Shown here piece by piece: positions 1 to 23,757 of a stretch of 64,000 nucleotides of DNA. The DNA comes from Fomitopsis serialis. Taxonomy: Eukaryota; Basidiomycota; Agaricomycetes; Polyporales; Fomitopsidaceae. The stretch is taken from positions 62,001-126,000 of the forward strand of contig NW_025955036.1 of the NCBI RefSeq assembly GCF_022376445.1, given 5' to 3'. Position 1 is the first letter of the stretch. Every line of letters begins with the position of its first letter. The position numbers and the translations under genes were made by a program. Under the pieces are notes generated by a model. That model had not been told where the DNA came from. It did no database searches and was given only the letters and a program-made list of their open reading frames with translations.

Positions 1-69
1 CGACGGCCTGTCTTGCTTGCGTACTATATACACCCTGTCCTCAGACCTGTAGTTGTCCTAACCGCCGTG

Positions 70-2342: not shown

Positions 2343-2531
2343 TCGCATTGCACCTTGCAATCTAGGGTGTATCCGTACCGTGCAATAGGGCTACAGCATT
2401 CGTCATTCCGTACTATACAGAGCATTGTGTGCCGCTATCTAACATGCACATGCACATGTATATGCATGCCCCAGCGATGCATCCCAGAAATAGCGATGGG
2501 TGTGAGGCGTCATGATGAGGAGCCTGGCAGT

Positions 2532-3791
2532 CTAGATGGCTTCCTCCTCGGTCTCGTCGCCCGACACTTCGGCATTCTCCTGCCCGGCCTTGGCCAGGAT
2601 CTGTGCAAATTCCTGTTCTTCCGTCTCGGAAATGGCTTTTGGCTGTCGGAGAAGATTGAGCATTACGAAATCATGACCGGCTGAGGGAGACGTACCTTCA
2701 TCTTGACCAGGAGCGAACCACCGTTGTCCTCGATCGTCGTCTGGATGGATTCTATTGCCCGCTCGAGGCGATCCACAGCAGCGTACTGTACGGACAAACA
2801 GTTCGGTGAGATGTCCAAGTCATGGGCTACAGTGAGGAGACGACGCACCTTGTCTGTAGCGTTGGTGGTAAGGACATACAGTGGCGGCGCGACGAGCTTC
2901 GCCTTGATGGGGACCGCCTCGCTGCTCTGCTTCTCACCCGCACGGAGGGCCTTCTTTATGGCGTTGATACCCGCGGGGGTGTAGCAGGTGAGCTCGATAT
3001 CCGCACGGAGCTTGATGGGCTGGGTGTGAGTCGGCGGGCGATGGTGGCGAGGAGGATGGACTTGACGTTCTCGGGGACGGGAGCGGAGAGGGAAGAAAAG
3101 ACGGTCTCTTGCTCACTGCACGGAAAGGTGTTGATCAGCGATAGCAAAAGTTTTCGAATGCAGAGGCACGTACGTGAGAGCCAGCTTGAAGGCGTCGTAT
3201 GGGTGGCCATATTTCTTCCCGACTGGCCATGCAATTTGCTCGTATAGCTGCTCGAGACGCTCCTCCTCGCTCGCGCCCGTATCTTCGGCCCCCTTGCCTC
3301 CTTTCCCTCGGCACCCTCACTGGGGACGGATGGAATCTTGGAGGCGACGTGCCGCATAATAGAGGCTACGCTTTTTGACTTCATGTAGCGTTCCTCGCAC
3401 TTCGTGATATCTTCGGGGGACACGCGGCGCTTTGACAGATCAATGTAACCTGTGACGAGAGGAGTGTCAGAACTTAAATTAGTGTCGAAGCAACACTAGG
3501 CGCACCCTTCTCCTTGTCCACCCTCAGCACGACCACGACCTCATTCCTGCCCACCCGGATGAGTTTCTGTATCGATCGGATACGTCTCCTCGACAGTTCG
3601 GAGAGCAAGATCATTCCCTCGATGTTATCATATTCGAGCTGCATAACCATTCGCGCGGTCAGCCGATTGCTCAGTAGATAATACCTCGGAGGCCGCACCA
3701 ACTTCACGTATGCACCCATCTCCGCAATTTGGCGGACCTGGACCATGACCAGCTCGTCCACCTCCGGATAGCGCTGCTCATAGTACCGCAT
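2532..3791 (-). CDS. SUI2: Translation initiation factor eIF2 subunit alpha
   Basis: eIF2-alpha is part of the GTP-dependent complex that brings initiator tRNA to the 40S subunit. The N-terminus [13 protein letters not shown] followed by an S1/OB fold is diagnostic. [15 protein letters not shown] carries the regulatory serine equivalent to Ser51, the Gcn2-family kinase target. [14 protein letters not shown] and SIMRHVA follow, then the helical and C-terminal domains ([20 protein letters not shown]). The C-terminus is acidic. Short introns interrupt after AYVKL, after DKEKG, after ALT, before [12 protein letters not shown] and before [12 protein letters not shown]. Two frame breaks, at G3022-3024 and near C3305-3307, are each repaired by one extra base in a short run. 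As the factor is essential and normally single-copy, these argue for sequence error and not for a pseudogene. It converges with NOC4. Confidence 0.93.
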
Positions 3792-4369
3792 TCTGTGCTG
3801 TTTTCGTGTGGACTAGCCGAGATAGATGGGAGGTATAAAGGCAAGGAGAGTGGTGGCTGATCGAGGCTTGACTCGGATGAAAGATCGCAAAGCGCCCGGA
3901 GATGGGTTACCTTCCTTTTGGAATATGACAGTGCGAGCAAATAAGCCCAAATACTACCGCGCCAACTTGAACTTCGAATTCAGCGAGTCTACTCTGTCTT
4001 TTCTTTGTCTTCACCGAGTCTTCACTCATTCTTTACGTTCAAGTGGGATTGTTGAAGCACCTGTGTTGTATCGCGCATTACACCAGTGTAACAAGTTTGC
4101 CGGTCACTGCATACTCAAGCAGGTGATACTCACGAAGCATGTAAAACAGCACAACCTAAGTGGATTGTCCGATCGTGCTACATTACCTAGGTATGTGAAC
4201 GGGTCAGTCAACTATGATACAGAACAATGGCTACAGGGGGTGGGTCATATGGGTCGGGGAGAGGATACAGGATATGCAAGTCAAATGTGAGTACTCAACA
4301 GTATGAACAAAACAACATGCGTTATTGACAAACGAAGAACAAAAGATCGTAGAAGTATCATTACCTTCC
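3792..4369. other. Intergenic: eIF2-alpha promoter, receptor 3' side
   Basis: No supported gene. A 154-codon open frame on the plus strand (3826-4290) shows no recognisable domain, and its start overlaps the eIF2-alpha upstream region. I treat it as chance. Confidence 0.5.
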
Positions 4370-6341
4370 TTACACAGTCTCATGGACGACAGTCATATAG
4401 ATGGCACCTCCATCTAAGCCCTCCGGTCGCTTCTCCCGCCCGCGCAGGCCGTTGAGACTCAAGTTTCTCCCGAGAGTAGGGAGGCCGTCCTTGCTACGCG
4501 TCCTTCTCGCCTGCCTCGGCGAACCCGCATTGTGGCCTCTCCCCGAACCATCTGCCGGCACTCCAGCGTTTGCAAAAGGAGGGAAATGGGGGAGCGTCGG
4601 CGAGTCGTGCAGAACATCCGGGGACTCGAGCGCATACGCGGAAGTGCTGACCGTGGATGACGCGAGGCTCATATCGACAGAGACGGTGCTTGGCGGACGC
4701 AGGCGGTGGACTGCTGGTGGCGGTACGGGAATCACGACGATTTCATCGGAAGCGATGAGAGGAGTCGCGGTAGGCGTGGTAGGAGAGACGGGAGACGCAG
4801 TCCTTCCCTTCACAGGCGAAGGCGGGAGAGAGGAGGGAGGTCGCGGCCATGGACCTGAAATTATGGAACTTGGTCGGCGACGCGAGCTTGGTCTGTGAAT
4901 CTCTTCTCCGTCGTTGGTTGGCCTCACTGATTCTGAGATAGCAACAGGTGGAGGTACGTCAGGTAAATATCCAGGTATATTGGCGGGTCGGAAAATGGAA
5001 GGTGGACGGGGCATCGAGGCTATCGTTGCGCGACCGACCGGCGAATCGAGGTAAGACATTGCAGATTGGGCGAAGCTGATATCCGTATCGTCAGAGTCGA
5101 TAGAGGTCGGGGGCGACGCGGCCTTGCCGTCCGGAGGCTGAAAGGACAGCGGCGCGAGCTTGACGCGCATATGGGCACGAGAACGTGTGCTCCCCTTACG
5201 CTCCGGGTCCATAGGGTGGATCGACTTCAGCGTCTCGGAGGAGCGTTTCGACGACATTTGCGGCTGCAGGTCCATGACGGAAGAAGAGCAAGACAGCGGC
5301 CTCATCTCGTCCTTGCCCGTGCCCGTGAAGAGGGTGCTGGCCCGCCAAACCATCGTGCGATAGCCATCCAGCGAGCAGTCCTCCCGGGACGCACGAGCTA
5401 GATTCACGAGGAAGATGCCGATGAGAACGAAGGACGAGGTGGGTATCATCCACCATGTCACCTCGATATCTGTCACGGTAAGAGTCGCAGAGCGGGAGAC
5501 GACGTTCGCGTGGGACAGTTGCATGTGTACCACGTCCCAGGACGTCCAAGGAAGCAGGTGAGGAGTGGATGCAAGCGCAGCATGTAAGGTGAACGTAGAA
5601 GAAGTCAGAAATAGCGACGCAATCAGGAGGGACCTGAGCAGCGGCCGGAGAAAATCGAAGGTGTGGGGGCTAGAACCCACTGACCGACTGGTGCGGGCCA
5701 GCGCGAAACCGCGACGGTGACCGCGATACATAGTGATACAGGTGAGGACGATGGCCGATATGCAGAGAATGAACGGTGGTAACCAGACCAGGACAAGTGC
5801 GGGAACGGAGTTGTATACAGCTGGTGAGCAACCGATGTTCTCCGTTAGGTTAAATCTGTGGTCTTGCACGATTATATCTGGCCCAGAGTCAGGATCCGAT
5901 GCAGGGCATGTACGCTTGCAAACTCACGAAGGGCCATGTAGACAATAGGGACATGATACACATTGCCAGATCAAAGGAGAGGACGCCGATGCCCCCTTTG
6001 GCGTCGCCCGTCATGAGAAGATGTCTCACTCGATTGGATAGACATAAGCAAGCTGCAGGTACTGCCACTCGTGCGCCGAGCAGCAGTTTTGTACCTGTGT
6101 GATGGTAAGCTCTTTGTCAGATATTCCTGCAGACGGGCTCACAGATGTCACACCAGACAGGTGCTCTTACTTCGACACTTCCTTCCCAAACTGCGGCGTT
6201 CACGCCTTGGATGGCATTGCAGATGAACAGCCAGCAGATAAGAGCCATCATGGCGATGTTCCGCGAAGTCCAGTACGCAGGAAGGAGACATGCAAGCAAA
6301 GCGACGCACGCGAAAGCCACAGCAGCCAACGCAGATGCCAT
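4370..6341 (-). CDS. STE3-type pheromone receptor (7TM GPCR)
   Basis: A fungal a-factor-type receptor of the STE3 family (GPCR class D), placed in the plasma membrane to sense prenylated peptide pheromone. Exon 1 begins MASALAAVAF with a first membrane segment and reaches the STE3 hallmark VRAPVWCDI. Exon 2 carries LLLGARVAVPAACLCL and LAMCIMSLLSTWPF, matching the TM3-TM4 region. Exon 3 has IVQDHRFNLTENIGC (compare IVQGHRFDIYEGYGC in the second receptor at 19.3 kb), further membrane segments and PWTSWDVVH. It ends in a Ser/Pro/Thr-rich cytosolic tail of about 300 residues, long for the family. Introns lie at about 6057-6112 and 5880-5928. The ATG at 6341 gives a short N-terminus as expected. 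Sequence is clearly diverged from receptor 2; whether it acts in mating or is a non-mating receptor-like protein cannot be told here. Confidence 0.85.
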
Positions 6342-7110
6342 GGACGATCCAGGTCTAAAGAGTGGTATCGCAGAATTGAGTGGGAGTGTACGAAGGTCGC
6401 AATCAGACAGTTTCACGACTTGACGGGGTGATGTGATATGGAGGGGGAAGGAAGGCGCGTAGTCAAAATGAAGCCTCGCCATTAATGAGCGACGACAAGA
6501 TCGGCAAGCTACTGGTGACTGCCAATAGAGCCCTTGACGGAGAACAACAATTGCCTGCAGCGAGACAATGAGCGGGAGCCGGGGGTATCTACGGAGGCCT
6601 TACCCGGCGCGCGCTCGCGAGGAAATGCACTAGAACCACCTGACGTCCCTCTGCGCGGCGGAACGCAGAGCGACAATAAGTGGAAGCCCAAACTGGGACG
6701 GGGTTTCTTTCGGCTTGCCGCAAGCGGATGGGGCGAGTGGCGTTCCCTATATGGAAGGCGTAGTATTCGACTGTCCGCTCATCGCGTGGACGCGTGAATT
6801 GTAACAGTGACCGAGTCCTCGAACGTGCACTTGCCAGTGATTGTCTGCATCAGACATAGATCGTTAAGCATGCGAGACGATGACGCCGGGAGAAGACTCG
6901 GGACGCTTCATCTGCGTGTCGGTTTGGTGTCGGTCTGAAGACTCATAGGTCTGATCGGCACGTACCTGAAGAATCCATCCATGCACTCAAGTATCTCATC
7001 CGCAGTTGCAGGCTAATTACTTTCTCCTCCTAGTACTGCTTGCCGTGCAACATATATACGTATCAAAATTCAAGATCTTCGCCGGGGGGGACTGGTAGTA
7101 TCAAAACATG
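6342..7110. other. Intergenic between receptor 1 and DUF6534 gene
   Basis: Upstream region of receptor 1. No supported gene. It includes a run of G at about 7084-7090. A minus-strand MDGFF start at 6982 was tested as a pheromone precursor and fails, having no CaaX end. Confidence 0.5.
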
Positions 7111-8715
7111 TCATGCAGAGACCGTTCTATCCACCACTTGAACCTCCCGATCCGAGGGTTTATTGTCAGACGAGGAGTTTTCGGAGTCTGGTGCCGTCAT
7201 CCTGGGCGCAAACGCCACCGAAGTCCATACTCTGCTCCCAGTGGTCGCCGCCGGCGCATGAGATAGATATGCACGGTTCAGGAGATGTGCGACCAAGCTA
7301 TTGGCGTAACTAAGGTTATGCTTTAGTCGTATCAGATGCCAGCAACTGTAACGCGGTACATACAGTTTAGCTTCGTTGTAGATGCTAATCATCGTTCAGA
7401 GTGAGTCAGTCGGTATGCATTGTGCGATGTAAATGCCGTCACACACTCACGCTGGCATGTAATACGATTGTTCCTGTGGACAGAGTCGTATGTTACGGGC
7501 TTTGCGGTTCATGTAACGTTTTCGCTCACCGGATATGCTAGAGCGAGGGCAACTCCTACTACAGCGACGCTCGCTGCACAGAAAGTCCAAGTTGACTAGA
7601 GCCCGGCGAGAGGTGATGAAAGGCGACATACCGGTCAAAGTACCGGTCTCAACAGTAAGACGGACGAGTTTATCGATCATTTGATTGGTGTTTATTATCC
7701 CCGTTTTCATCTTGAGCATCTGCAGGGAGGAATATGAGGGCACTGGCACTAGAGCAATGCCCATATAGTACAACTCGCCAATATAGTCATAGATACCGCA
7801 ATGACAACGTCGACTATCACGGTGCCTCCAACCCAAATCTGTGAGGGGGGTCGTCTTAGCCTAAGATCACGAAGCCTACATGGGAAGAGCATACGCCAAT
7901 AGTGATTCGTCCGGACGTCGAACCCAGGACATCTCCTATGGACCGCGACTCTTTCAACTACTTCCACGTGAGACGATGCCGTGATCTAGTTTTGGAGGAG
8001 AGATACCTTCACTCCCGTCATGATTCCGCCGATAGACTGAGTCAGACATATCTATCACAAGGGCCAAATCATCACTTCGCTTACGGAGAACAAGCGTCGA
8101 GGCGATAAGACATACCAGTACGATGCCACCACCCAAAACCCGCGAACTCGATAGTTTGTAGATGCGCCATGCGAAGAAACATTGCACCGTGACCGAGACG
8201 AGTGCACACATGATCGGCAGGGAGAACCACTCGTTTGCGATGGTGGAGTATTCGGCTATGCCATTGCTCGCGTTGAAAACGAAGGTGATGAAGGCATCCT
8301 CAGTGACCAGTCCCCACTCGACCCATTCAAAGACGAACAGTCCGTAGACTATAATCGGCATCAGTACAACGTTCGTAGGGGCTTGTCATCTAGACCGACC
8401 AAGGATCTTCAGTCGCAGAGGGTCCTGGGGGAACTGGAGGTAGTAGAAATCTTGTATCTTCAATATAAAGCACGCCACTGTGCTGCTTGCCCGTTGAGAC
8501 TTACAGACTTGCACTGTTAGTACCCCCTGTAGCATCCAGTGCATCAAATAGCTCAGAAGCTGTGAACGGCTCGCTTCAATAACAACCCAATCATTCACCG
8601 TAAAGACTCACAGCAGGTGCAGCTCTGGAAACGTAGTCAGCTATCAGGCAACCTACTAGATCTGAATAAGAAATCTAACTCACAGTTCGTCGAAAAGCTT
8701 GGAGCTGGATCCCAT
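7111..8715 (-). CDS. DUF6534-type integral membrane protein
   Basis: Multi-pass membrane protein of a large, functionally uncharacterised mushroom family. The family pattern is visible in order: FYYLQFPQDPLRLKIL (about 8408-8460), VYGLFVFEWVEWGLVTED, WFSLPIMCALVSVTVQCFFA and WRIYKLS (about 8150-8350), IWVGGTVIVDVVIAVSMT (about 7775-7835), and MIDKLVRLTVETGTLT (about 7630-7690). After a further intron comes KLYANSLVAHLLNR near 7300-7390. The C-terminus is hydrophilic and ends at the TGA at 7111. The ATG at 8715 (MGSSSKLFDEL) is my choice of start; the first small exon joins are uncertain. It shares orientation with receptor 1 and the pheromone genes, but nothing ties it functionally to mating. 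Confidence 0.65.
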
Positions 8716-10624
8716 CCTGGTATGTCTGAAGGTGAAAGGTAGACACGACACTACTGGTCCAGTATCTTATACGGTGCGAGCACGGTAGGCTATGCATCTA
8801 TCTGCCATAACAGCATCAGGATGAAGGGACGTCCTGACGGAAAGACCTGGCCCCGTATACTGCAGACAATAGGATTATCCAGACAGCTTTCTGTAGGTAG
8901 AGCAGACATTCGCACAAGCAGGCGTCGTGATACGATGAGGCCAGTGGCCCTACCAGTAGGGCTGGTATGTGTTCAAGTGGAACGTTCACCGTGACAGTAA
9001 ACATATGGGCTGTACGCGGGACCGCAGTGCACACCAATAATAGCACAAGTACATATCGGCATACGCCCCTTGAGCAGGCCGTGTCAGACGAACCTGAGAC
9101 GAACAGATAAGAGCATGCGGCCCAGGTTCGGCCTCGCAGGGAACTCCCACACGAGATTTTGTACCAACACGTTCCGGCGCCCGAGCTAGTCAACTATCGG
9201 CGGGGCCGTCGTAAATATGCAAATGAGCTCGAGGGCCTGAGGCCTGAGATCTGAGAAATCAGCCGGAAAATGGGATTAGTACAGATATATTCTCACCTGG
9301 TGAAACATTTCTTCCCGCCACGCTGCAGGGGAAACATGGAACCGTGAATAGGTGGTAGTGCTATGAAAATATTGGAGTCCAAGGTACAGCTTCGCCTTGT
9401 TGAGCCGTAGGAGCAGGTAGGGAGCATCAAGAAATAGCGACTGTGTCACAGAGCTAATATAAAGTACTATACTGTTGTGTAGAGCTTACAACGAGGGTTA
9501 AATGTCATCCGAAAACAGAGAGGAGGAGGAGAGCTACCTCGGCGCTCTACTGTCACACTAGTACTTTGACACGTGCAACGCCACCCCCGTATTTGATCTT
9601 GCTTGGTATCCATGACATCCTAGGCTTGGCGCGTAACATCGTCTAACTATCCTGGTAATCCTGAGGGCCACTCAAAATATGTACCGACTTCCTACATATG
9701 CAATGCACCGTATACACCACAAATGATGCTATGACGTCGAATGGGAAGCTCGAGGTAAGTATGTTTTGGATATGATGCATGATGCGACCGTCTGAATCGC
9801 TTGACTCTGCAGCACCACCACTCAGGCTGGCAACACGTTGACCTCGGCAGGTCGCACGGGTTTGTCCGCACAAGTGTGAGCACGTATCCCGGTGGTCACC
9901 CCTATGTGCATTGGATATGGTTTGGATATGTCCCTTCCAAGTCGCTGCTATGCCAAAGGCAACTCATGTTGTCGGACTGCTAGACCTTCGCTCGAGTCAG
10001 TAGCTGGTGCGTACTCGTCCGAGCTACCGGTAGTGCCCTTGAGTGCCCATACGTCTCAACCACATACAGGAACCATTGTGTTCGTAGCTAGCGGCGATGT
10101 CCATTGTCCTGCTGCGTGCTATGGTTGTCTCGTGGCGCGCGCGAATGTCGCTGTCCGTGCCCTTGATTTGATACTTGTCACGATGAACGGTGTGTTTACT
10201 CTTTGAAATAGTGTATCTGAATGCTCATGACCAGCCTATTTGTTTGGTCGCCTAGGCAGGCCGAACATTTACAAATACAAGTCCTTCATCCGTCCGTCCA
10301 TTTCCGGTCCATAATACAAAATTAATCTGGATCAACAAATAGGAATACAAGTAGCAAAAGGCCATGTCCGTGCAATCGCGAACGAAGAGGTCGATAAGGA
10401 TAGTGTGTGCATCCCAGATGGCGAACGCCGAGCTCAACAAATGAGTGGGGAGGTCGTTGGTATCAGCGATGCGCAGGTGCGAGGAAGGTATGATTGGAGG
10501 CCCGACTGGACCGTGTATCCGCATGCAGCGCTGTATGGGCTCTGTCAGAATTGACGTCCAGTGATTTATCTTGCTACTCACGTATCAAGCGAACAGGTCA
10601 CCGATAGGAAGAACAAGGAAGTGT
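8716..10624. other. Gene-poor stretch before the pheromone genes
   Basis: No intact gene recognised. A minus-strand frame at 8816-9193 encodes hydrophobic segments (for example YVLVLLLVCTAVPRTAHMF) that resemble a membrane protein, and could be a relic of a neighbouring family such as DUF6534; this is weak. Short open frames at 9643-9883 and 9892-10206 show no domain. Confidence 0.4.
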
Positions 10625-10750
10625 TCATGAAATGATGCACGAGTACGCGGCGGAACCGTTCGTGTGGTCGAAATTGTTTGGCACCTGGGAAGCGTCCGCC
10701 TCGATCTCCTCGGCAGGGACAGGTACAGCGACGGGGAAGAACGCGTCCAT
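10625..10750 (-). CDS. Lipopeptide pheromone precursor 1, CaaX box CIIS
   Basis: A 41-codon gene encoding a mating-pheromone precursor. It begins MDAFFPVAVPVPAEEIE, the typical acidic MD-x-F leader of mushroom pheromone precursors, and ends SCIIS-stop, a CaaX box for farnesylation, C-terminal trimming and methylation. The second half, NNFDHTNGSAAYSC, should hold the mature peptide after N-terminal cleavage, perhaps near the Asp-His; this cut site is inference. It has no intron. A minus-strand TATA box lies about 112 nt upstream. It is a clear sister of the gene at 12096-12212: both share MDAFF, PVPAE, the N-[FY]-D spacing and TNGS. The gene lies between receptor 1 and receptor 2 on the same strand as receptor 1. 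Confidence 0.88.
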   Translation of the reverse strand: MDAFFPVAVPVPAEEIEADASQVPNNFDHTNGSAAYSCIIS

Positions 10751-12095
10751 CGGTCACGATGGATATGTCGCGAGAAGAGCGAAGAGTGGCAGGTAGCCGA
10801 AAGTGAAGGTCGAGTGGCGGGTGGGTAACTTCGTTGCCGTTAGTCTGTGACCTTGCTTGTGCTTTTATAGGCCGCAGAACGGATCTATTCTCAGAACATG
10901 AACACAACTAGGAAGGCGTCCACAGAGTTTTGGAAACTGCATTGCGATCGCGATGGAAGTTCCGGTCGCAACATAGCCAGTCAAGGCACCGTTCGGTGAG
11001 TAATTGTGTAGAAGTTGTCCAGCCGACTGTGAAATTGCCTCCGCAGTGTCAGCCCCTATGAGCCCCGAGCCCCTGTCCTCGCGTTTCTTTAGGACATTTG
11101 AAGAGTCTTCGGATCCCTTCTCTTCCGTCGTGGTTCCGAGAATCCGATGTCAGAAACTCTTTCCTGAGAGAGTCATGTCCTCCGAAACACTCCTTCACGC
11201 ATGTTCACTTGCTAGCTCAGTTACCGCATGCACAGCACAGTACGTACAGCTCGCAATTCTTTCATCCTTCTTATTTGCCGCACCGCACTGACAGGCAGCG
11301 GAACTTGAACGTCGCACGACAGCATAGCCGCAAAGACAATAGCCCGAGAACCCGCGTGTGATCGATGCCGAACACCGTTCCCGGAGCGCGCATACACGCT
11401 GTTGTCTTCGCCGTGCATGCAGTATGGCATTCCGTCCGCAGAGTGCAATTGTGTTGATCATGTCACGTGAGTGAGGCGGAACTCTTCCTGACCAGACTGA
11501 ATCCTCGATTACTCAGGAGAGCTGCGGAGTCAGCGGAAGGCAATCCAACATCACTTAGTACTCGGAGGAGACTACGAGCACGCAGTTGTTTGGAAAACAC
11601 TCGAGACTTCCGAAAGACAAGACAGCGAAGATTGATGCTCTCTTTCACTGGCAGTATCCTCTTACAGAGGTTCCTATCGGCCACCCAGGGGCTGCATAAA
11701 GACTACGATGATGCCCTGTACGATATCGAGCTGAGGCAAGTTCGGAATGTTGAGATCAATGTCCCTAACAACATGCGGCGTCCGATGAGGCTCTTGTGCA
11801 AAGTATGTCATTTTGTAACCCGATTTCCCCCCTTCCTCTTCTTTAAACAAACACCCGGCTTGCCGAACTACTGATGTATAACTTAGGATTAATCGAGAAC
11901 GAAGTAAAAGCCCAAGGATGGTGTGTGAGCGCCGATCACGAGTGACGCTACTCGCGAAAACAAAAGTGTGCTGTAACAGGGAGGGTCGTCTACGGCTTGC
12001 AAGGCTAGTGTTGCGGAACCGGCGCTGAGGTCTGGAGAAGGTTGTCGACGTTAGGCAAGTAAGAATTGTCTACGCTAAGGCCGCTTACCAGAGAC
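10751..12095. other. Spacer between pheromone genes 1 and 2
   Basis: Apart from the TATA box of pheromone gene 1 I recognise nothing. Open frames at 11004-11291 (+), 11195-11461 (-) and 11467-11874 (+) show no known motif. Confidence 0.45.
10863..10869 (-). promoter_or_regulatory. TATA box of pheromone gene 1
   Basis: TATAAAA on the minus strand, about 112 nt upstream of the ATG at 10750. Similar elements precede all three pheromone genes. Confidence 0.55.
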
Positions 12096-12212
12096 TTAGA
12101 CGATCGTGCACGACCCACTTCCACTCCCATTGGTGGTGTCGTAGTTGACCGGAATTTGTGACTCTTCGATCTCGGCGGGGACGGGTGCAGCAATATCAAA
12201 GAAGGCATCCAT
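12096..12212 (-). CDS. Lipopeptide pheromone precursor 2, CaaX box CTIV
   Basis: A 38-codon gene encoding a pheromone precursor: MDAFFDIAAPVPAEIEE leader, then PVNYDTTNGSGSGS, then CTIV and a TAA stop. The Cys four residues from the end with aliphatic residues behind it is a CaaX prenylation box; Val at the last position is less common than Ala in mushroom pheromones. The leader and the D-x-T-N-G-S core match pheromone precursor 1 closely, so the two arose by duplication and then changed in the presumed mature peptide, consistent with divergence in specificity. It has no intron. The TATA box is about 108 nt upstream. Confidence 0.88.
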   Translation of the reverse strand: MDAFFDIAAPVPAEIEESQIPVNYDTTNGSGSGSCTIV

Positions 12213-13651
12213 CCCTAGTTACGAGGTACGCAGAGCGTGTGGGATGCTGCGGTGAGCTCCAAGATGTACCTCTCGTCGATGTGCTGACTGTCGAATGTGT
12301 CCGTAGTCAACAGGAGTGCTTTATATACGCACTTTCGGGGAATAAAACCAGAAGGCGCTATACGATTGTTCTCCCCAGATATCGGAACAGTTCACCATGC
12401 GCTGGAGAGACACCTGGTGAGCGATGGTCGTGTATACGTCTTATTGTTCTTGCGGGAATCCTATCGCAAGGGTCTGAGAAGGTCTAGGAGGACGGTGATT
12501 GATTGGCATGGATTCCTATAGCGCGCGCTCTGGTACTGTACCGTTGTCGGGTTTATGACGCTCATACTGACTCTGTGCTCAGTGCTCCATGCGGTGCTCA
12601 GCGCGAACTCATGGTTCAAGCAACTCACTGAAGTACTTGAAGCTCTTAGCTACACGTTTGAACGCCGAAAGCCCGGAGGCTTCTTTCACTGGCTTTGGAC
12701 GAGCGGGGAGCTTTGGGTGAGCGGGGAAGTGGCAGTCTGGGAACCTTGGAGATGAGAGTCACCAAAACGGCTGCCGTGTAGGTGAGCGCACGTTCGGACT
12801 CACGGATACAGCTAGCGCGCCTCGTGCACAATAGAAAAGGACACGCTGTGTTTCTATACGGACCGCGGTGCGTCTCTGGCAGTACATATCCTCTATATCC
12901 GGCTGGCGTTATTGTTATGCGCGGGTCATGTGACCGCGTCTGGGTAAGGATCGCGTTTTAACTTCTCATCGTCGAGGACCGCGAGGAGCGCGATTACACA
13001 ACACGGTATGTCCGCGACAAATAGCACCATTGGTATGAATGGAGAACCGCATGTGCGTTGGCATCATGGTCTAGCTCCCGAGCTAACCTGGCTACACACC
13101 TTGGCTATACACCGACTCAGGCTGGCAGCGACAGGTGTTCGTGGCTAGATGATTGCAATGCAAGTCTACTATTCAAATGTGATCTGTCTGTCAATATGCC
13201 GCATTCTCTACATTTCGTTTGCGATGGTGCCACTATTGTCGAGTCACTCACACTCATAGCCTGTCCAGTTGGTTCAGCAAGCTCCTGACTCACGAATGCG
13301 TGCCCAGGTTCGGAATGGGAGGCAGGAGATATTATCCATTAGTTGAGTCCCAGAGCGAGATATCTAGGGAGTTAGGTGAGGAGCATACGACAGCCGCGAT
13401 ACACATTACGGAAAAGAATGGAGGATCGGCTGGGCGATAGAATATTAGAGGCTACAGCTCGGGTTGGTATGCATACTAGTCAGACAGCAGGGAGCGATAA
13501 GGGCGATACAACATGGACAAGTAAGGACACAAACACACATCGGTGGCATACTGCCACTCCATAACTTACGCGCCACAGGACCGGCAATGATACATATGAT
13601 ACAGCCAATATCTCACCATCGCACTCCCCTCTTCCTTTGGCCCAGCATCGT
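12213..13651. other. Spacer between pheromone gene 2 and the membrane/coiled-coil gene
   Basis: Holds the pheromone 2 promoter. No other gene is supported; open frames at 12555-12755 and 13058-13288 lack motifs. Confidence 0.45.
12321..12327 (-). promoter_or_regulatory. TATA box of pheromone gene 2
   Basis: TATATAA on the minus strand, about 108 nt before the ATG at 12212, close to the spacing seen at pheromone gene 1. Confidence 0.5.
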
Positions 13652-15339
13652 TTAAACGACGGCCTTGGGGAGAACGTTACGCAGTGGTGGCACCAGCACG
13701 ACCATGATCCTCACGCTCGCGCGGTATGGCCATAGCAGGATCGTGTGCGCGCACTCGAGTACCCACTGGTGGAACGACACCGGCGCCGCTTGAGCCGCTC
13801 GCTTGCGCGCCGCCGAGCTGCCCCCGCTATGGCTTCGACTGCGACTGCGGCTGCCGCTCTTGCTCCGGACGCGGCGGGCCTTGTGGTGCGCGTCATTCAC
13901 CGTCGAGTGGTGATCCTTCTCGTTATCGGTAACGTACGTCCCCTCGGAGTCCGCGTCGCCTTCGCCGTTCAGCTCGGCTTCCCCATCGGAGAGTGCAGAC
14001 TCGGGGATGGTCGGCAGGCTGGGGTCAGGCGCGCCGCTCGAGGATAGCCTGTGATGTGCAGTCCCATTCGAGCTTCGGGATGTACTCTGGGAAGAGGGCA
14101 GTGGCGATGACGAGCTTCCGCCAACCAACTTCTCGAGCGGTGTGTCTGGCGCGCCCAGCGACCATACCGTCTTTGGCAGGCGCAAGACTCCAACAACGAA
14201 GGTGCGAACATAACTCCAAACACGTCGGTACGCTCGCTCGTAGGCCGGGGCAACATAGCCACGCCGGAAGGCGTCGATGTCCATCCGCCTATTCTGCTCA
14301 ACCTGTAGCAGGCCCTTCTCCAGCGCTAGCACGCGGGCAGCCAGCGCCATCCGCGCCATCTCGGTCTTGCGCTCGCTGCGCTTTGCGTCGCGCTCGACCT
14401 CACCGAGAGCCTCGCTGAGGTCGTCGCACACTTCCTGGAGCCGGCCGGCGAGCGTCGTGCGTGCATTGAGTTCCTGTACTTCGCGGTCGAGGATGTCGAG
14501 TCGTTTGAGGAGCATAGCGTTGACGGTGACGTCCTCCGTTTCGTGCTTCTCGGGCGGGTAGTGGATGGCATCGTGTAGCGCTTCGGTATGTCCTTGTATG
14601 CGGGAGATAAGGTGCGTCCATGGTCGGATGCCAGTCGCGAGCACGAAGAGCGTCGTGCTGAACCAAGAGAGCGACTCTGTCTCCCCGATGGCCGACAGGA
14701 CATGCTTCAAGAAAGTGGCACCAAGTAGGGGGGATACGCCGGTGACACAGAGTAGAAACAGCTCCTGCCGCCGTAACTCTGTCGCAGCAAGCTTGGTGAC
14801 ACGGTCGGGCTCTCCGGCGCGCATGCCCGACTTGCGAGGTCGCGAGGCTTGATAGAGCTTCCAAGGAACTGAAAGAACAATTCAGTTAACGAAACTTAAC
14901 ATAAGCAAGGATAATGCGCACCTTCGATGAGCTGGTGGAGATAGAATATGAGGAGTATGATGAGGAACAGGTTCTTGATGTGATCCCCTCCGGTGAGCCA
15001 GTTCCCAATGGGAGACACGCAAGCGACGATAATCGAAAGGTCCAAGTCGGCCCATGACGTTCCCGACCGCTCACGCGAGTACGGGGTGCTGCGAGGACTC
15101 GGGATCTGCGGCCGGGGCAGCGGCGGAACTGCTGTTCCCTTTCCCTTTCCCTTCACGGTCGCGTAGGCAATCTCCTCCTCGCTCTCATGTTCGCTTCCGT
15201 CGTCTTCCTCGTAGTCCGAGTCGTCTTCTTGCAACACAGCCCCTCCAGACCTCGTCGGCAGAGAAGGACTGCGTCCGGAGTGTCCGTTCGGCATCCTTGC
15301 GCGCTGAGAGGGGCCCGCCTGCGCAGCTTGCGTCGCCAT
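13652..15339 (-). CDS. Conserved fungal membrane protein with coiled coil and SR-rich tail
   Basis: Two exons with one intron at about 14874-14922. Exon 1 starts MATQAAQAGPSQRARMPNG and has an acidic block (EDDSDYEEDDGSEHESEEE), a SWADLDLSIIVACVSPIGNW stretch and a hydrophobic segment LFLIILLIFYLHQLIE. Exon 2 adds membrane segments (FLLCVTGVSPLLGATFLKHV; SWFSTTLFVLATGI), and then a helical coiled-coil region with LLKRLDILDREVQELNA and EVERDAKRSERKTEMAR. A low-complexity acidic/Ser region with an SKSGSRSRSRSHSGG run follows, and a last hydrophobic stretch near the C-terminus. I do not recognise a named family; the clean frame and clear domain layout mark it as real. It sits inside the pheromone region, between pheromone genes 2 and 3, on their strand. 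No role in mating is shown. Confidence 0.75.
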
Positions 15340-16093
15340 TGTCGTTCAGAGAGATGAGATGAAGTGAATGGAAGAGAGAGGAGGAGAGTGCAAGTGTCGG
15401 CGCGTGGAGTGAGCGAGGCTGCTTCAAGGCCGTAGGCTCCGTTCCGCCTTGCTGGATCAGTCACTTCCGCAGCTCCTGCGTGTTCGCCGCATGTAAACGA
15501 GCACTTTTTGTGTGTAAATTAAGCGGCCATGGACAGAACACACCAGTTAGACTTACGTTCGGAGAGATGGTGATTGTCGGCGGCAAAGGTGGCAGGACGC
15601 GCTCACGCCGTCACGCCACGAAATGGCAGTCGCATGACGCGCGCCGGCAATAGCGGCGATAATATCCGCCGTCAAATTCGTAGTCTAATTGAACCTCCAG
15701 TGATGGAAGTCATCGTCGTACAGTAGTAATACGTACGAATCAGACATGCATGATAGATGTTACAATAAGAGCTACACTGCAGTGTCTGTCGTGAACACCG
15801 TATAAATAACCATAAGAGTCTGTCATCCACTGCTCTCTGTGAGCAGCAAGTTCGTAAAGCGAGAGAAGTCGAAGTCCGATGAGGGAGTGTATGGCGCGTC
15901 TTGAAGCTTGAAGCTTGACCCCTTGACAGTGGTCCATGAGACGCATGGATACCAAAGCAGTGATCAACGCGCATGTTGGAAAGAGGATGTAGATAAGGGC
16001 AGAAAGTGGCAAGGACTGGCGACAATCTGCATTGCGGTTAGATACCACGAGAAGAGGGTAGCGATGATACATACTTACCTGGGTCGAAGACAA
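15340..16093. other. Intergenic, downstream of pheromone gene 3
   Basis: Promoter side of the 15339 gene and 3' side of pheromone gene 3. A minus-strand frame of about 117 codons (15740-16093) directly abuts the pheromone stop and is read as chance. Confidence 0.45.
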
Positions 16094-16252
16094 TTATGCG
16101 ACAATGCACATTTGGGCCACGATCTGCCCGTTCGAGCATGTCTCGGCGTGATGCTCGAAGTCCTTGAGGATATCCTCCTGCGCGTCCCGTGGCATGATGG
16201 CGTACTCTGCGCCCACAGGCTCGGGCGGAGAGAGGACGAAGAAGTCGTCCAT
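16094..16252 (-). CDS. Lipopeptide pheromone precursor 3, CaaX box CIVA
   Basis: A 52-codon pheromone precursor. It begins MDDFFVLSPPEPVGAEYAI, continues through an acidic middle with DAQEDILKDFEHHAET, and ends AQMCIVA followed by TAA. CIVA is a classic mushroom pheromone CaaX box. A Glu-His pair before HAETCSNGQ is a plausible N-terminal processing site (inference), which would give a mature peptide of about 14-15 residues with an extra internal Cys. The leader differs from precursors 1 and 2, so this belongs to another pheromone subgroup. A TATA box lies about 140 nt upstream. The nearest receptor is the plus-strand STE3 gene 3 kb away. Confidence 0.88.
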   Translation of the reverse strand: MDDFFVLSPPEPVGAEYAIMPRDAQEDILKDFEHHAETCSNGQIVAQMCIVA

Positions 16253-19200
16253 GGCTTGTGCTAAACGCACTCGCACTGAAGGTGATGAAGGGAGAAGAAG
16301 GGAGTTCCTCGGCGACCCGCGCGCTATTTGTTCGTCTATATATGTCGTTTGGAGAAGGCTGAAGCTGCACTGTGTCAGGGGCGTTCTGTACGTTTTATAC
16401 CACAATGGTGCTGCACCTACAAGAATTAGGAGATGTCGTCAAGCGCACAGCGCAATGTGTCCTATGACCTGCGGCAGCGACAAGAGAGCGCGATAGGAGA
16501 GGGGGAAGTGCAGCACGGAGCTTGCTGTGCAGCGCAAGTCATGACGACGGCCACAACTCGTCCACGCACCACAGCCAAAGCCCCGGCGATTCAGAGTTAA
16601 CAACAGGATTCGTGGAGCACATTACCAATTCAGACACGAAGCGATGACCGAAAGAGAACGACAATTGGGAGCGTGGTCGGCAGGCCGCTTCGGGCTGGCG
16701 CGTGCGACGGCGAGGTTGGGATGATACGCCGGCAGCCTCACGCATGGGTACGGAATTTGAGTCATGAGACGGAAATGGGAAGAACTTGATCGGATGGCGG
16801 GGATGGGTGTTCTGCGCGGATCAGTATCGAGATGCGTAGACAAAAGGAGGGAACAATATCTAGTCGACTGCGTCACTAGATTCACAGCCAGATAGGCTGC
16901 CGCAGGTACTGTACCGCCGGTACGGAGCCACAGGATGTGGTTCGTGTCTCCGGACACCTGTACAGCTCGTCTTCATCGCCAACGCAGACCGTGCGGAGAA
17001 GAATGGCACCGTCCGTGGCAATCCACTGAACGCAGCCTTTCTGCCGCCAGACACGGAGGCCGCGAAGATGATGCATCTTACCGGTATTCGGAAGATTAAA
17101 GCAGCTCATTAGCGGGACATCGCGGGCTAACCACTGCATCTAGCTCACGGAACAGTTGCTGTGAATTCACTGGCAAATTAACAGTGAGCCGTGGCACGCA
17201 AATTCTCGACCACTTGTGCATTTTACCTTACTACACCTTCAAGGTTACTACGTTCATTGTGAACGTGAGGTGGTTCAAAGGACCACGCATCGACCTGCGG
17301 AAATGAGTGGACGTGCATTTTGAGAAGTGATCAAAGTCCACCAGAAGGTGTGGCCGGGCGTCTATTAAATAGTATCCCGAAGCGGAAGCAGCGGTGAAGG
17401 ACAATAAGCACTTTAGCGCCAGCGGGGCGAAGGCGCTCCCCAAGCGCTCCCGCAAGACAAAAGAACGGTGACAGTCATATACTGCACCCTCCTCCTCGCC
17501 ATCCTCCTCCCTCCCCTTCCTCCCGCCACGACCGATCGGTCTCTCGAGCTCGACGGATCGTACCAGACTATGCCGACGACGATATCGGACGACAGCGCGT
17601 GCTCGCCGCCGTCCGCTGTTTTCTTGGGGATAGCCCTGTGTTCAGCGGGTGGCTATGTTCTTGTCTCTTGGACTTGACGATGCATCGAAATAGTCGCTCC
17701 TACACTCTTGGACCACAGGGCAGTGAAACGAAAACAGAAGACAGTTCGCGCCGAGGCGCGGTGAGTGTTGTCGCCCACTGCCGTCACCGGATGTTATGCT
17801 CACTGACCTTAGTGCGATGGCATCTACCCAGGTCGACGACGGGTAGTGGCAGTACCATTATCCACCCTTGACGACGGAGAGCTTCAGCCATTCGAGACGT
17901 CTCATTGCACGCCATACTGCGTGCCGCCCCGACTTGGCGAAAGGTAAGTGTTGTACTTATTATCGTCGGCCCCCGCTTAGCCTCAGTCTGAAATTGGCTT
18001 GTCTTTCTGAACCTCATGCGCGGCTCATCCAAATTGACCTCGTGAATGCGTTCGCGATTTGCAATTGCAATGGACTCAACGCCAACACCTCTATGCATAC
18101 CATCATTGTGTCGATTGTCGCTGACGCAGGCTTTGGCTAACGACTTATTGCTTCGGCTCTGCGTCCTTCTATTGACTTCGTGCACTGAGGTTGTTAGAAC
18201 TACACTTCGGCTGCTGATCTGGTTCATTTAGACAGTCCTGCCAATCATCATGTCCCATCTCCACCGACACAGCGTAATCTGGGTCCAAGACCCACCCTAC
18301 TGGGAATCACTCAGGCGTCCTTGGCAATATTGGCACCATGTCAACTTGGTCTCTACGCTGCCTCTTGTGCTCTGCGAATCCAACCTAGCTGGTTGGGTAT
18401 TCCCCTTGTCCTTTGATACCGGACTTCGCACTGCGGTATTCGTCCTTCGTTCACGTGACAACAGACGCGTCGCTAGGTCTCCCGAGGAATCCAAACAAGG
18501 AGAGGCTGGAACACCACCATCTCGTGCTCAAGAGACTTCTAGTTCTGGTCCGGAATTCGCATTCGATGTATGCCTTTCTGCTCGTGCCTGCTGATTAGAC
18601 GCGTTATCGCTGGAGCTCCCACAGTCTCGGTACTGGACCGTGAACTCCCTCCTGGTACTCTCGTTGATGTTTCAAACCTTCGCTGATTTACCTCTGCCTG
18701 CGACTTTGTTCGAAACCTCCAACTCAGCTTTCCGTCGAGACGACGACCGGCCTGTTGCTGCATCAAATTGGGGACTCGCGTCGCTGGCAATGCGTCTTCG
18801 ACAGAACGACTTCTCCGCATCCCGTTTTGGAGTTCCCATTCGCACCTCTTTGGTTAGCGGCTGGGCATCTCGGCTTGATGCTCCAGACGGCGCTCGTGGC
18901 TCGTGCCCGCGTAGCCGAGCCATGTGCCCTCATGTGGTGCCTGCCGGGATCTGCCTCCGTGGCTTCATCAAACGGTCCCAATCCGGAAGCAAGACAAGGT
19001 AACGTCTATATCAGGCAATCCGTGAGAAGCATCGTCAACCTCCGCGAGCATGGTGATGGCGCTCAGATGCCAGCCGACGCACAAGCAACCATCCGAATAC
19101 GTACACAAGGGCAGAGAGCGTGGTGAAGTATTTCATGGACGCGCTGGCGAGGACTGCCCTCCAGCAATCACCCATCTGTGCATTGCCGCAGTCGCCCGCC

Positions 19201-19290
19201 CTCCTCCCTGCAGGCTTCCAAGTCTCCGCCCGTCCGGCGTCTTCTGTGCTACCTCTCTTCACCGCGTTTACCCTCGGAGATCTTTACGCG
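16253..19290. other. 3-kb spacer between pheromone gene 3 and receptor 2
   Basis: Carries the pheromone 3 promoter and the receptor 2 upstream region. I scanned both strands for short frames ending in a CaaX box and found none in frame. Open frames such as 17784-18227 (-), 18250-18594 (+) and 18640-19002 (+) have no motif I know. Confidence 0.45.
16393..16399 (-). promoter_or_regulatory. TATA box of pheromone gene 3
   Basis: TATAAAA on the minus strand, about 140 nt before the ATG at 16252. A second TATATA at about 16337-16342 (about 85 nt upstream) is an alternative. Confidence 0.45.
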
Positions 19291-20805
19291 ATGGACGCAC
19301 AACTGGCGTCGTGGTCAGCGCAGCAACTTGCTGCCACCGCTCTCTCCTTCATCGGGTTTGTTCTGGTTAGCATTCCCCTCTACTGGCACTTGGAAGGTAC
19401 GTGACCGCTTCGCTATCTCATTACGTCGGGCTCACAAAGTGACGACAGCCTGGAACGTTGGCTGCGTTCTCTACATCTTCTGGTGCGGCACCCAGTGCCT
19501 CATCCAGTTCATCAACATGATCATCTGGCGGGACAACGTTATCGTCTGGGTCCCTGTCTGGTGCGACATCGTCACCCGCTTCCGCCTCGCCTCCAGCATC
19601 GGCATCTGCACGGCTTCGCTCATCATCAACCGTCGTCTGTACAAGATCGCGACCATTTCCACGGTGTCGATGACGAACAGCGACAAGCGGCGGATGATTT
19701 GGGTGGATCTCGCCATCGGTCTAATTCCCTCTATCGTGGTCGTTGCACTGTGTGAGTTCCTATCGACGCTCGGTCTGTTGTGCCTACTGACGCGTCGACC
19801 GATCCAGTCTGGTTCATTCAAGGCCACCGCTTCGATATCTACGAGGGTTATGGGTGCACATTCGAGATCGCGAACACCATCCTCTCCTACTTCCTGCTCA
19901 CCTCGTGGCCGATCGTCATCGGCTGCATCTCCGCCGTCTACTGCTTTTTGACGCTGCGCGCGTTCTTCAGGCGTCGCAAGCAGTTCAACGAGCTCATGTC
20001 GAGCAACAAGAACCTGACGTTCCACCGGTACCTCCGGCTCATGGGTCTGGCAGGCATCGAGATCGCGTGCACGGTCCCGCTCGCGTCGTGGAACCTGTAC
20101 ATGCAGTCGCGCAACCCGCTGTACGTATGGAAGGGCCTCGGCGACCTGCACTACGACTTCTCGCGCGTGGACCAGTTCCCTGCGATCCTCTGGCTCAACA
20201 ACGAGTTCACGAAGCCGGCCATCATCTTCGACATCTGGGACATCATCATCTGTGCGTTCATCTTCTTCGCGTTCTTCGGCTGCGCGGAGGAGGCGCGGAA
20301 GCACTACTCGATAGCTGCGACGACCGTGGCGAAGCGCGTCGGTCTATCGACGAGCTGGCTGTCGCGCTCCACTGCCAACGGCTCCTATGGGTACGTTCCT
20401 TGCGTATGTTTGCGCTAGCACGAAGCTGACAGTTGCCTCAGTTACAACACGTCGAAGCCGACGGCGAGCGCACTGGGCCGCATCACGATCCCGACGTTCG
20501 TGCAGCACAAGCGGCGCAACTCGCTCGACTCGTTCTCCGACCGCCTCTCGACGTCTATCTCCATCGGGGAGGAAACGCCCGTCGACGACCTCAAGGTGCC
20601 GTACTCGCCCTCGGAGCACTCCGCGGGCTCGAGCACGTACGTCCCGTCGCCGATGTCCGCGAAGAGCGCCGACAAGGCACACACGTTCGTGTTCCCGCCG
20701 CCGCCATCGCCGCCCGCCCGCGTGCACGATCCTGCGTCGCCGACGCGCGCTGCCCCGCCGGACGTGCCCGCGTCCGTGCACGACAACACCTTCGACATAG
20801 TCTGA
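19291..20805 (+). CDS. STE3-type pheromone receptor (7TM GPCR)
   Basis: A clean STE3-family receptor in four exons. Exon 1, from MDAQLASWSAQQ, holds TM1 (ATALSFIGFVLVSIPLYWHL). Exon 2 has the family signature WNVGCVLYIFWCG, NMIIWRDN, WVPVWCDIVTRF, then INRRLYKIATI. Exon 3 has WFIQGHRFDIYEGYGC, TM5, LMSSNKNLTFHRYLRLMGLA, YVWKGLGDLHYDFSRVDQFP and TM7. Exon 4 is a Ser/Pro-rich cytosolic tail ending NTFDIV. Introns lie at about 19398-19448, 19753-19806 and 20391-20440, all with GT-AG borders and matching phases. The start at 19291 gives the short extracellular N-terminus usual in the family; an in-frame upstream ATG at 19135 would add an unlikely extension. No frame break is seen. This is the best candidate for a working mating receptor in the window. 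Confidence 0.92.
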
Positions 20806-21510: not shown

Positions 21511-23757
21511 ATGTCGACTCGAATCCCCTCGGCGAACGAGCCTACGCGATCCTCTGACGACGTGGAGAAGAAGGATGCTGTTGCCCTCACGGAGTCTCTT
21601 TCGCGGGACCCATATCCTCATGCGTACGCCGAAGAGGACCTATTTGAAGAGGGAGCCGTGGACGCTGTCTATCAAGCGAAGGCACGCGTACTGAACGCTG
21701 CTGTGCGGGAGATTGGAATGGGAAGATACCAGGTCCGTGGCAGTATGATCTTGTCGAGGAGGGACCGGGTGTTGACTTGTTTGAACCAGTGGTATCTCTT
21801 TGTGGTTGCTGGTTTCGGCTGGTTCTCGTACGTCGCGGTTGTCGGACTACTCTTCTGGTCTGTATTCTGACCCCCAATTTCCCGACACAGAGATAGCGTT
21901 TGGCCAGTGAGTTGCATAGGTGCCTCTTTGCGACGATCCGCGCCTTACCGCGATGATATGGTGTATCAGCTTGTGGCAGGTCTCATACTCAATCCTGTCG
22001 TCGCCGAATTCCAAGTCGACAGCCAATGGTTGTCCTTGGCATTGAATATTGGTCTATTCGCCGGTGCGGTGTTCTGGGCTTTGGGGTGTGATATTTGGGG
22101 GCGTAGGTACGCAGTGCGCTTACACTTCGAGATCATCGGTCGTGGTGTATTTACTGATTGTGGACCCCAGGTGGCCATTCAACTTCACGTTGTTCATCGC
22201 CGGTGTATTCGGTCTGGCAGCCGGAGGCGCTCCCAACTTCGTCACCTTAGCCTCCTTGTTTGCTGTCGTAGGGTTTGGCGTGGGCGGTAACATGCCCGTC
22301 GACTCTGCTGTGTTCCTCGGTGAGCTGAGAGGGCAAGTGCTTGTACCGACAAGCGAGCTGACTTATTTCGTTAGACTTCGTGCCGGGAAGCCACCAGTAC
22401 CTACTGACTATCCTATCCATTTGGTGGGCAATTGGCCAGTTGGTTGCGAGCTTGGTATGGGAGAATGCCTGCCTGGTCTCATTCTGTCGTCACTGACGAT
22501 GCCGTAGATCGCCTGGCCGCTTATTTCCAACATATCATGCCCCGAGACTGCAACGACCTGCACCAAGTCCGAGAACATGGGATGGCGGTATCTCCTGTTC
22601 ACCTTGGGAGGCATGACGCTTGTTCTTTGGGCCATCCGCTTCTTCGCGTTCAACCTCGAGGAGAGCCCGCGGTATCTCGTCGGTCGCGGTCGCGACGCCG
22701 ACGCCGTTGCCGTCATTCACAGAATCGCTGCCTATAACGGGCGCTCGTCTAGCTTGACCGTGGAGCAGCTCGCGGCGGCCGGAGAGCGCGCTGTGGAGGC
22801 GAACAAGGCTGCTGCAGGTGCAGCTGGCCTGCCCACACTATTGAGCGGAACCTCAGTATGGACGACGTACCACATCAGGAGCTTGTTCAAGACCGCGAAG
22901 CTTGCATGGTCAACTAGTCTGTTGATTGTAATTTGGGGCATTATCGGTCTTGCGTCCACGTTGTACAACAGCTTCCTGCCTTACATGTACGTCTTCTCCT
23001 TTTCGCAGTGATGGCTGGCTCACAGTTTGACCGCTAGTCTCGCACACCGCGACGCCAATTACGGAGACAGTTCATACTACACGACCTACCGTCAAGAAGT
23101 CATACTCGGCGCGATCGGTGTGCCAAGCGCGCTGATTGCTGGGTGGGCGGTCGAGCTTCCGCGTATCGGACGGAAGGGTACTCTGGCAATCTCCTCGGGC
23201 AAGTATTTCATTACTGACAATGGGTGACATTATTCAACGACCCCTCGCGAAAGACAGGGCTCACTGGTGTCTTTCTCTTTGCGAGCACCACCTCCCACAG
23301 CTCAAATGCGCTGTTGGGATGGAACTGCGGGTGAGTAAGGCGTGCTTTCGTGTGGAACTTGCCAGAGCTCATGAGACTGGGCGCGATGCGTAGGTACGCC
23401 TTTGCAAGTAACGTGAGTAGACAAAAGTCACACAGCAGAGGGCAGGACTGAACATCGCACTTGCAGATCATGTATGGTGTCTTGTATGCTATATCGCCTG
23501 AGGTGTTCCCTGCGAAAGACCGAGGTACAGGTAACGGCCTGACAGCCACTGCGACTCGCGTCTTCGGGATCATAGTCAGTCAAGTCCCTTCTCAGCCTGA
23601 CAGTAGCGGCTGACGACGTTCGCAGGCTCCAGTGATAGCGATGTACGCCAACCTCGAGACAGCGGCGCCCGTGTATGTTTCGGGCGCCCTGATCATAGGC
23701 AGCGGAGCTCTGGTGCTCCTTCTACCCTATGAACCTAGGGGGCGGACGTCCAGCTGA
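21511..23757 (+). CDS. MFS transporter, SV2/SVOP-like
   Basis: A 12-TM major facilitator of the branch related to synaptic vesicle protein SV2/SVOP. After a hydrophilic N-terminus (MSTRIPSANEP) comes AAVREIGMGRYQ and, across an intron, WYLFVVAGFGWFSDSVW, the usual start of this branch. The motif DIWGRRWPFNFTLFIAGVFG matches the cytosolic loop 2-3 motif A. FGVGGNMPVDSAVFLDFVPG is in the TM4 region. RFFAFNLEESPRYLVGRGRD is the central loop. GIPSALI-type and ELPRIGRKGTLAISS mark the second half-repeat, and SPEVFPAKDRGTGNGLTATA lies near TM10-11. About eight short introns. TGA at 23755-23757. Substrate unknown: organic ions and sugars are both possible. Confidence 0.82.

Follow-up and report, generated by a model that had tools for sequence, protein, structure and literature searches.

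The stretch of Fomitopsis serialis DNA analyzed here (hereafter the window: 64,000 nucleotides, positions 62,001 to 126,000 of contig NW_025955036.1, called C734 below, so that window position 1 is C734:62001) most probably comes from the non-mating, right-hand side of an extensive B (pheromone/receptor, P/R) mating-type cluster in this mushroom-forming fungus. It contains two receptor genes of the STE3 family, named f and g, and three short genes for pheromone-like precursors, named CIIS, CTIV and CIVA (Table 1). When two versions of the region present in the assembly (66.19 Mb, 806 contigs) were compared, g and CIVA turned out to be nearly or fully the same in both, whereas two receptors to the left of the window, b and e, have reached synonymous saturation and their adjoining precursors have reached or approach it. 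An earlier, sequence-only reading of this DNA had suggested that the window genes include mating-specificity units, and this part of it could not be upheld.

Receptors and pheromone precursors of the cluster

A profile search of the assembly contigs with PF02076 yielded at least 53 exon-wise STE3 matches, to be read as a lower bound, on contigs C734, C287, C370, C541 and C223. Using a purpose-written spliced aligner, we located seven receptors on C734, namely a (from 23.7 kb), b (27.0 kb), c (29.2 kb, minus strand), d (33.1 kb), e (37.2 kb), f and g; C287 carries a, b, c, x, d and e, C370 carries g, and a further receptor, h, is found on both C541 and C223. The scan for precursors (open reading frames, ORFs, starting with MD and ending with a CaaX motif; on C734 covering the first 136 of 192 kb) turned up eight candidates on C734; C287 had five and C370 two. 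Clustered receptors and precursors characterize a B locus, and the seven receptors and eight precursors of C734 lie together within ~59 kb (C734:23.7-82.8 kb), of which the window shows the right end. Five of these receptors and five of the precursors are located on the same contig beyond the window, with units b and e 23.5-35.5 kb to its left; the remaining outside precursors lie at 31719 (beside c), 32264 and 41112. The assignment of the region to a P/R (B) locus in the sequence-only reading is therefore supported.

Within the window, receptor g matched PF02076 with 318.3 bits (E 6e-95) and the first 304 residues of the f model with 162.3 bits (E 1.9e-47; cut-off 29.2 bits). The three precursor genes combine a short ORF with an MD-x-F start and a CaaX end, as expected for fungal pheromone precursors. 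Three such peptides in the window compare with a mean of 0.045 and a maximum of one in 200 dinucleotide shuffles; an origin of the three ORFs by chance was rejected, and the five genes exist where the earlier reading had placed them. A Pfam search with CIIS, CTIV and CIVA returned no family at E up to 1, but a profile match is supporting rather than defining here, and the precursors of Flammulina match the Pfam profile only at E 0.0013-0.45 in the published account (PMC3140503). Read by eye, a candidate for the charged maturation dipeptide that precedes a glycine-rich or CaaX end can be seen in CIVA (EH) and CIIS (DH), with YDT in its place in CTIV; all cleavage sites are putative. CIVA is longer than the glycine-rich peptides described below, has an internal cysteine and matched only itself and its identical copy on C370 in the entire genome. 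Scans of the window with Rfam and for tRNAs gave no matches, and the three Homeobox_KN matches in the assembly say nothing about heterozygosity at the A locus.

Divergence between the two versions of the region

Contig C287 can be aligned in pieces along C734:23319-58506 and contains 4.9 kb of additional sequence (C287:26323-31206); the counterpart of C734:73270-86073 is C370. Long pieces of these alignments are 92-99% identical and the receptor pieces 70-95%, and the two h-bearing contigs, C541 and C223, share 98.4% identity over 6.2 kb. We infer that C287 and C370 come from the second nucleus of a dikaryon, which implies nothing about the phase of one relative to the other.

At the protein level, b and e are only 77.1% and 67.0% identical between the versions, with a proportion of synonymous differences (pS) of 0.794 and 0.778. 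The corresponding values are 86.5% and 0.346 for c, 94.6% and 0.055 for a, 97.9% and 0.063 for d, 99.1% and 0.019 for g, and 99.7% and 0 for the unlinked h. The precursors follow the same pattern: the one at 26543, beside b, is 53.2% identical (pS 0.703) and the one at 36434, beside e, 39.5% (pS 0.820), compared with 78.3% for 31719, 100% for 32264, 94.6% for 41112, 89.5% for CTIV and 100% for CIVA. (A_x, the broken remnant of receptor x, and h_541, one copy of h, were left out of this comparison and of the tree below.) In a 500-base profile of DNA identity, with gaps left out, values fall to 63-72% at units b and e, both of which are flanked by steps that could not be aligned, and stay at 93-100% over 73.0-86.1 kb. 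Deep divergence is limited to b and e, a milder peak occurs at c and precursor 31719, and g and CIVA are at background. Deep allelic divergence, which marks a B locus, is hence found at units b and e and not at g (dS 0.019), for which two versions only could be compared. A comparison of the region for allelic divergence had been proposed as a check in the sequence-only reading; such divergence exists, but outside the window, and is absent from g and CIVA.

In Trichaptum, the conserved receptors STE3.1 and STE3.3 were judged non-mating and the diverged STE3.2 and STE3.4 mating, with less than 86% protein identity between different types, according to the parts of that study available to us (PMC8970355). 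When this yardstick is applied to our data, b and e would qualify as mating units, c would be borderline and g would not qualify. Judged from their sequences, b and e look like mating-type units, and the candidacy of the window's two receptors as the two mating subunits was rejected, since g is invariant between the versions while b and e are deeply diverged. Of the alternatives offered earlier, more than one specificity unit is not supported for the window, and one receptor-like gene comes closer, as g does not differ between the versions.

Precursors of this type are farnesylated and trimmed, and the pheromones that a nucleus encodes act on the non-self receptors encoded by its partner. The pheromones of units b and e would accordingly activate the b or e receptors of the other nucleus and thereby define the B mating type; control of mating compatibility by this locus is putative here. 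Receptor g, by the same comparison, would be a non-mating STE3-like receptor.

A tree of 15 rows, comprising receptors of this assembly, placed g and h (57% identical) together as sisters, with b, x and e on the same larger side and a, c, d and f on the other; the placement of f is unsure because of its very long branch. The number of receptors differs between the versions, as x seems intact at C287:7592-8880 and is a broken remnant at C734:30847-31669. Receptor a (C734:23692-24821, C287:378-1521) shows an apparent frame break in each version, at different places, despite 93-100% DNA identity (gaps left out), which seems to reflect sequencing error or independent decay.

Non-mating candidates and alternative readings

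Two of the three precursors in the window, those ending in CIIS and CTIV, are members of a family of glycine-rich peptides starting with MDAFF. A search of the assembly for this DNA pattern gave 18 matches, against four for a reversed-pattern control. Seven were the known cluster genes and 11 lay outside C734, C287 and C370; four of the latter are pheromone-like, representing three loci, one of them with two identical copies, and seven are not. The same three loci were among the nine matches obtained with the CTIV peptide, and their contigs (C45, C137 and C805) had no STE3 match in the PF02076 search. Six loci of the family were thus found, three of which (CIIS, CTIV and C734:41112) are in or beside the P/R cluster. 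The idea of two pheromone subgroups in the sequence-only reading holds in form, but the dispersed family to which CIIS and CTIV belong resembles non-mating peptides in the literature. By analogy with these, the two would be pheromone-like peptides that are farnesylated but have no part in mating specificity, with a possible role in growth or self-sensing. Receptor g and the glycine-rich peptides would then serve another signal, and hyphal self-sensing has been suggested as the role of some Brl receptors (PMC8161036).

Receptor f is more difficult to judge. If f is spliced in the way its relatives are, the frame is broken in transmembrane segment 4 (TM4; read by eye), the model that stays open relies on a GTTTGC donor at the cost of part of the conserved VQGHRF motif, and an alternative model drops TM4 altogether. 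Crude hydropathy at the threshold used gave seven peaks for the first f model and six for the second, compared with seven for c, five for g and four for b. The terminal branch of f is 2.15 long and the GC content at third codon positions (GC3) of its tail is 0.64, against 0.87 in g; this weak codon bias and the long branch argue for relaxed constraint. It is quite conceivable, if not the view to which we incline, that f is a decaying pseudogene and g the working non-mating receptor. Simple decay is argued against by the 499-codon open frame of f, alongside which stand a GT-AG model with seven hydrophobic segments and the 162-bit STE3 match. No contig was found in the assembly as counterpart of window positions 1-11270, and f and CIIS consequently fall outside the comparison between versions; CIIS has no second copy anywhere in the assembly, while CTIV and CIVA, two of the three window precursors, each have one on C370. 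This stretch contains the start of an eIF2-alpha-like gene that occurs once in the assembly and is presumably essential, for which reason a gap in the assembly is the likeliest explanation for the missing second version.

In tetrapolar fungi it is enough for mates to differ at one of the B subunits, and g with CIVA (and f with CIIS) might therefore be further mating-specificity units that are homozygous, or unassembled, in this dikaryon. CIVA and g have the same divergent order of pheromone and receptor as units b and e, and f and CIIS lack a second copy in the assembly, as such a reading would allow. On the other hand, g lies within 10.7 kb of 98.75% identity with no block of old alleles, its sister h, whose contigs carry no further STE3 match, is equally invariant, and CIVA and g are 3.0 kb apart, compared with 0.3 and 0.7 kb in units b and e. 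We consider it unlikely that these are further mating units. An artefact of the assembly, with the C370 copy collapsed or mis-phased, is a highly improbable source of the low divergence seen at g and CIVA: the assembly is fragmented and offers no second version of window positions 1-11270, but C370 differs from C734 by ~1.25% over the 10.7 kb that hold g, and another 2.1 kb show a difference of 7.5%, so C370 is a separate sequence.

Several observations weigh against the window being a non-mating flank. A single dikaryon provides two alleles only, and g could be a homozygous mating unit as long as b or e differs; f and CIIS escape the comparison altogether. In CTIV, all four differences across its 38 codons are replacements and none is silent, a number too small for interpretation. 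An MDAFF start alone is not diagnostic, as precursor 31719, beside c, shares it, is 78.3% identical between the versions and has a different tail. The gene models were predicted from sequence alone, and the tree is limited to receptors of this assembly. In Flammulina, the authors argue in the portion of their report at hand that FvSTE3.2 may be a mating unit homozygous by chance (PMC3140503).

Within the preferred interpretation, in which the window is the non-mating part of the cluster, g and the divergently arranged CIVA might even form a private ligand-receptor pair, the same in both nuclei and acting as an autocrine, non-mating circuit beside the mating circuits. This reading, which we put forward as a long shot, is based on their invariance and divergent order. 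If true, it would supply the non-mating receptors of mushrooms, so far orphans, with a ligand.

Some features adjoin these genes. Between CTIV and CIVA, inside the 98.75% identical block, lies a gene for a predicted 544-aa protein (13652-15339, minus strand) with no Pfam match. Receptor g is adjoined by a sugar-transporter-like gene (21511-23757, plus strand), one piece of which reached 21.9 bits with Sugar_tr, slightly short of the 22.3-bit cut-off. A PDB sequence search with g, run at E up to 1, retrieved no STE3 structure, and scans of two contig collections (viral_contigs and genome_contigs) confirmed no relative of this receptor. Part of a gene that may code for a membrane protein is found at positions 7954-8361; similar copies occur at C734:173.9-176.8 kb as well as on further contigs, and two pieces tried nearby had no Pfam match. 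On C370, the stretch left of the CTIV allele (C370:1-16763) has no match to the window left of 11270; its first 10 kb gave 75 genome-wide matches covering parts of the length (dispersed repeats), and for the other 6.8 kb the comparison was limited to C734.

Table 1 Positions of receptors, precursors and landmarks (window coordinates unless a contig is given).
Feature	Position	Strand	Remarks
STE3-family receptor g	19291-20805; exons 19291-19396, 19449-19751, 19808-20390, 20442-20805	plus	451 aa, clean 4-exon model
STE3-family receptor f	4370-6341; exons 6143-6341, 5924-6094, 4370-5862	minus	uncertain model in the TM4 region; strongly diverged, with a long C-terminal tail
Pheromone-like precursor CIIS	10625-10750	minus	41 aa, uninterrupted ORF, MDAF start, MDAFF glycine-rich family
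Pheromone-like precursor CTIV	12096-12212	minus	38 aa, uninterrupted ORF, MDAF start, MDAFF glycine-rich family; allele on C370
Pheromone-like precursor CIVA	16094-16252	minus	52 aa, uninterrupted ORF, MDDF start; identical copy on C370
Receptor b and precursor (unit b)	C734:27029-28455; precursor 26543-26689		outside window, left
Receptor e and precursor (unit e)	C734:37234-38483; precursor 36434-36571		outside window, left
Breakpoint between versions	11270..11271		right side alignable to C370; on the left, 16.8 kb of C370 without match to that part
Off-cluster pheromone-like loci	C45:2318-2422; C45:22269-22388 (identical copy C137:3651-3770); C805:88840-88953		MDAFF pattern
eIF2-alpha-like gene, first exons (S1 domain)	3325-3791	minus	once in assembly; marks stretch without second version

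Comparison with known B loci

A single assembly here separates linked receptors and precursors that bear the signature of mating alleles from those that do not (seven and eight genes, except f and CIIS). Orphan receptors and candidate ligands (g with CIVA, and the glycine-rich peptides of the MDAFF family) are thereby defined, with which the function of non-mating STE3 receptors can be addressed. The non-mating side of these loci is little studied, and the contrast between the versions makes the question testable in this fungus.

The glycine-rich family resembles precursors from several mushrooms. In the accessible parts of the reports, Pycnoporus has seven MDA/DF...CaaX precursors, four of them mutually alike and resembling presumed non-mating ones (PMC4101180), and glycine-rich pheromone-like peptides of Agaricus, Coprinopsis and Laccaria are presumed to act outside mating type (PMC8305134). 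Shared features are an MDA/DF or MDS/AF leader, a CaaX end, a glycine-rich predicted mature peptide and several similar copies; the location of three of the six loci in or beside the P/R cluster differs from those precursors, in a comparison made by published description. A search of literature text for the letters MDAFF returned two matches, both unrelated.

As regards the receptors, Schizophyllum commune also has STE3-like receptors both at its B locus and, in one case, away from it; there Brl1-4, with brl4 unlinked as h is here, were proposed to act in growth and self-sensing (PMC8161036, partial text); the likeness is one of description and does not imply orthology with g, h or f. Exons 2-4 of receptor b (113, 67 and 138 bases) match the lengths reported for Schizophyllum receptors in the same source. 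The Agaricus study likewise describes, in the part available, two groups of non-mating receptors near the P/R loci of other species (PMC8305134).

The whole arrangement resembles the MATB locus of Trichaptum, as far as the published excerpt goes, in that conserved and hyper-diverged STE3 genes are intermixed with precursors among them; it differs in size, with seven receptors and eight precursors over ~59 kb compared with four and two in 30.3 kb, and the flanking genes listed for Trichaptum are PAK, RSM19, DML1, RIC1 and SNF2 (PMC8970355). Also comparable are the B loci of Grifola frondosa (PMC10607315) and Polyporus umbellatus (PMC11766841), described in the excerpts as having six receptors in ~48 kb, only some of which are considered to determine or differ between mating types. 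Our eight precursors compare with five in Grifola and, in the excerpted account, none found in P. umbellatus. When published P. umbellatus PR primers were compared with C734, C287 and C370, two of the four matched at five or six mismatches (best 5 of 23) and two did not match within six, which gives no indication of a single species. Taken together, this is a real B locus of known kind, and nothing in it departs from known systems.

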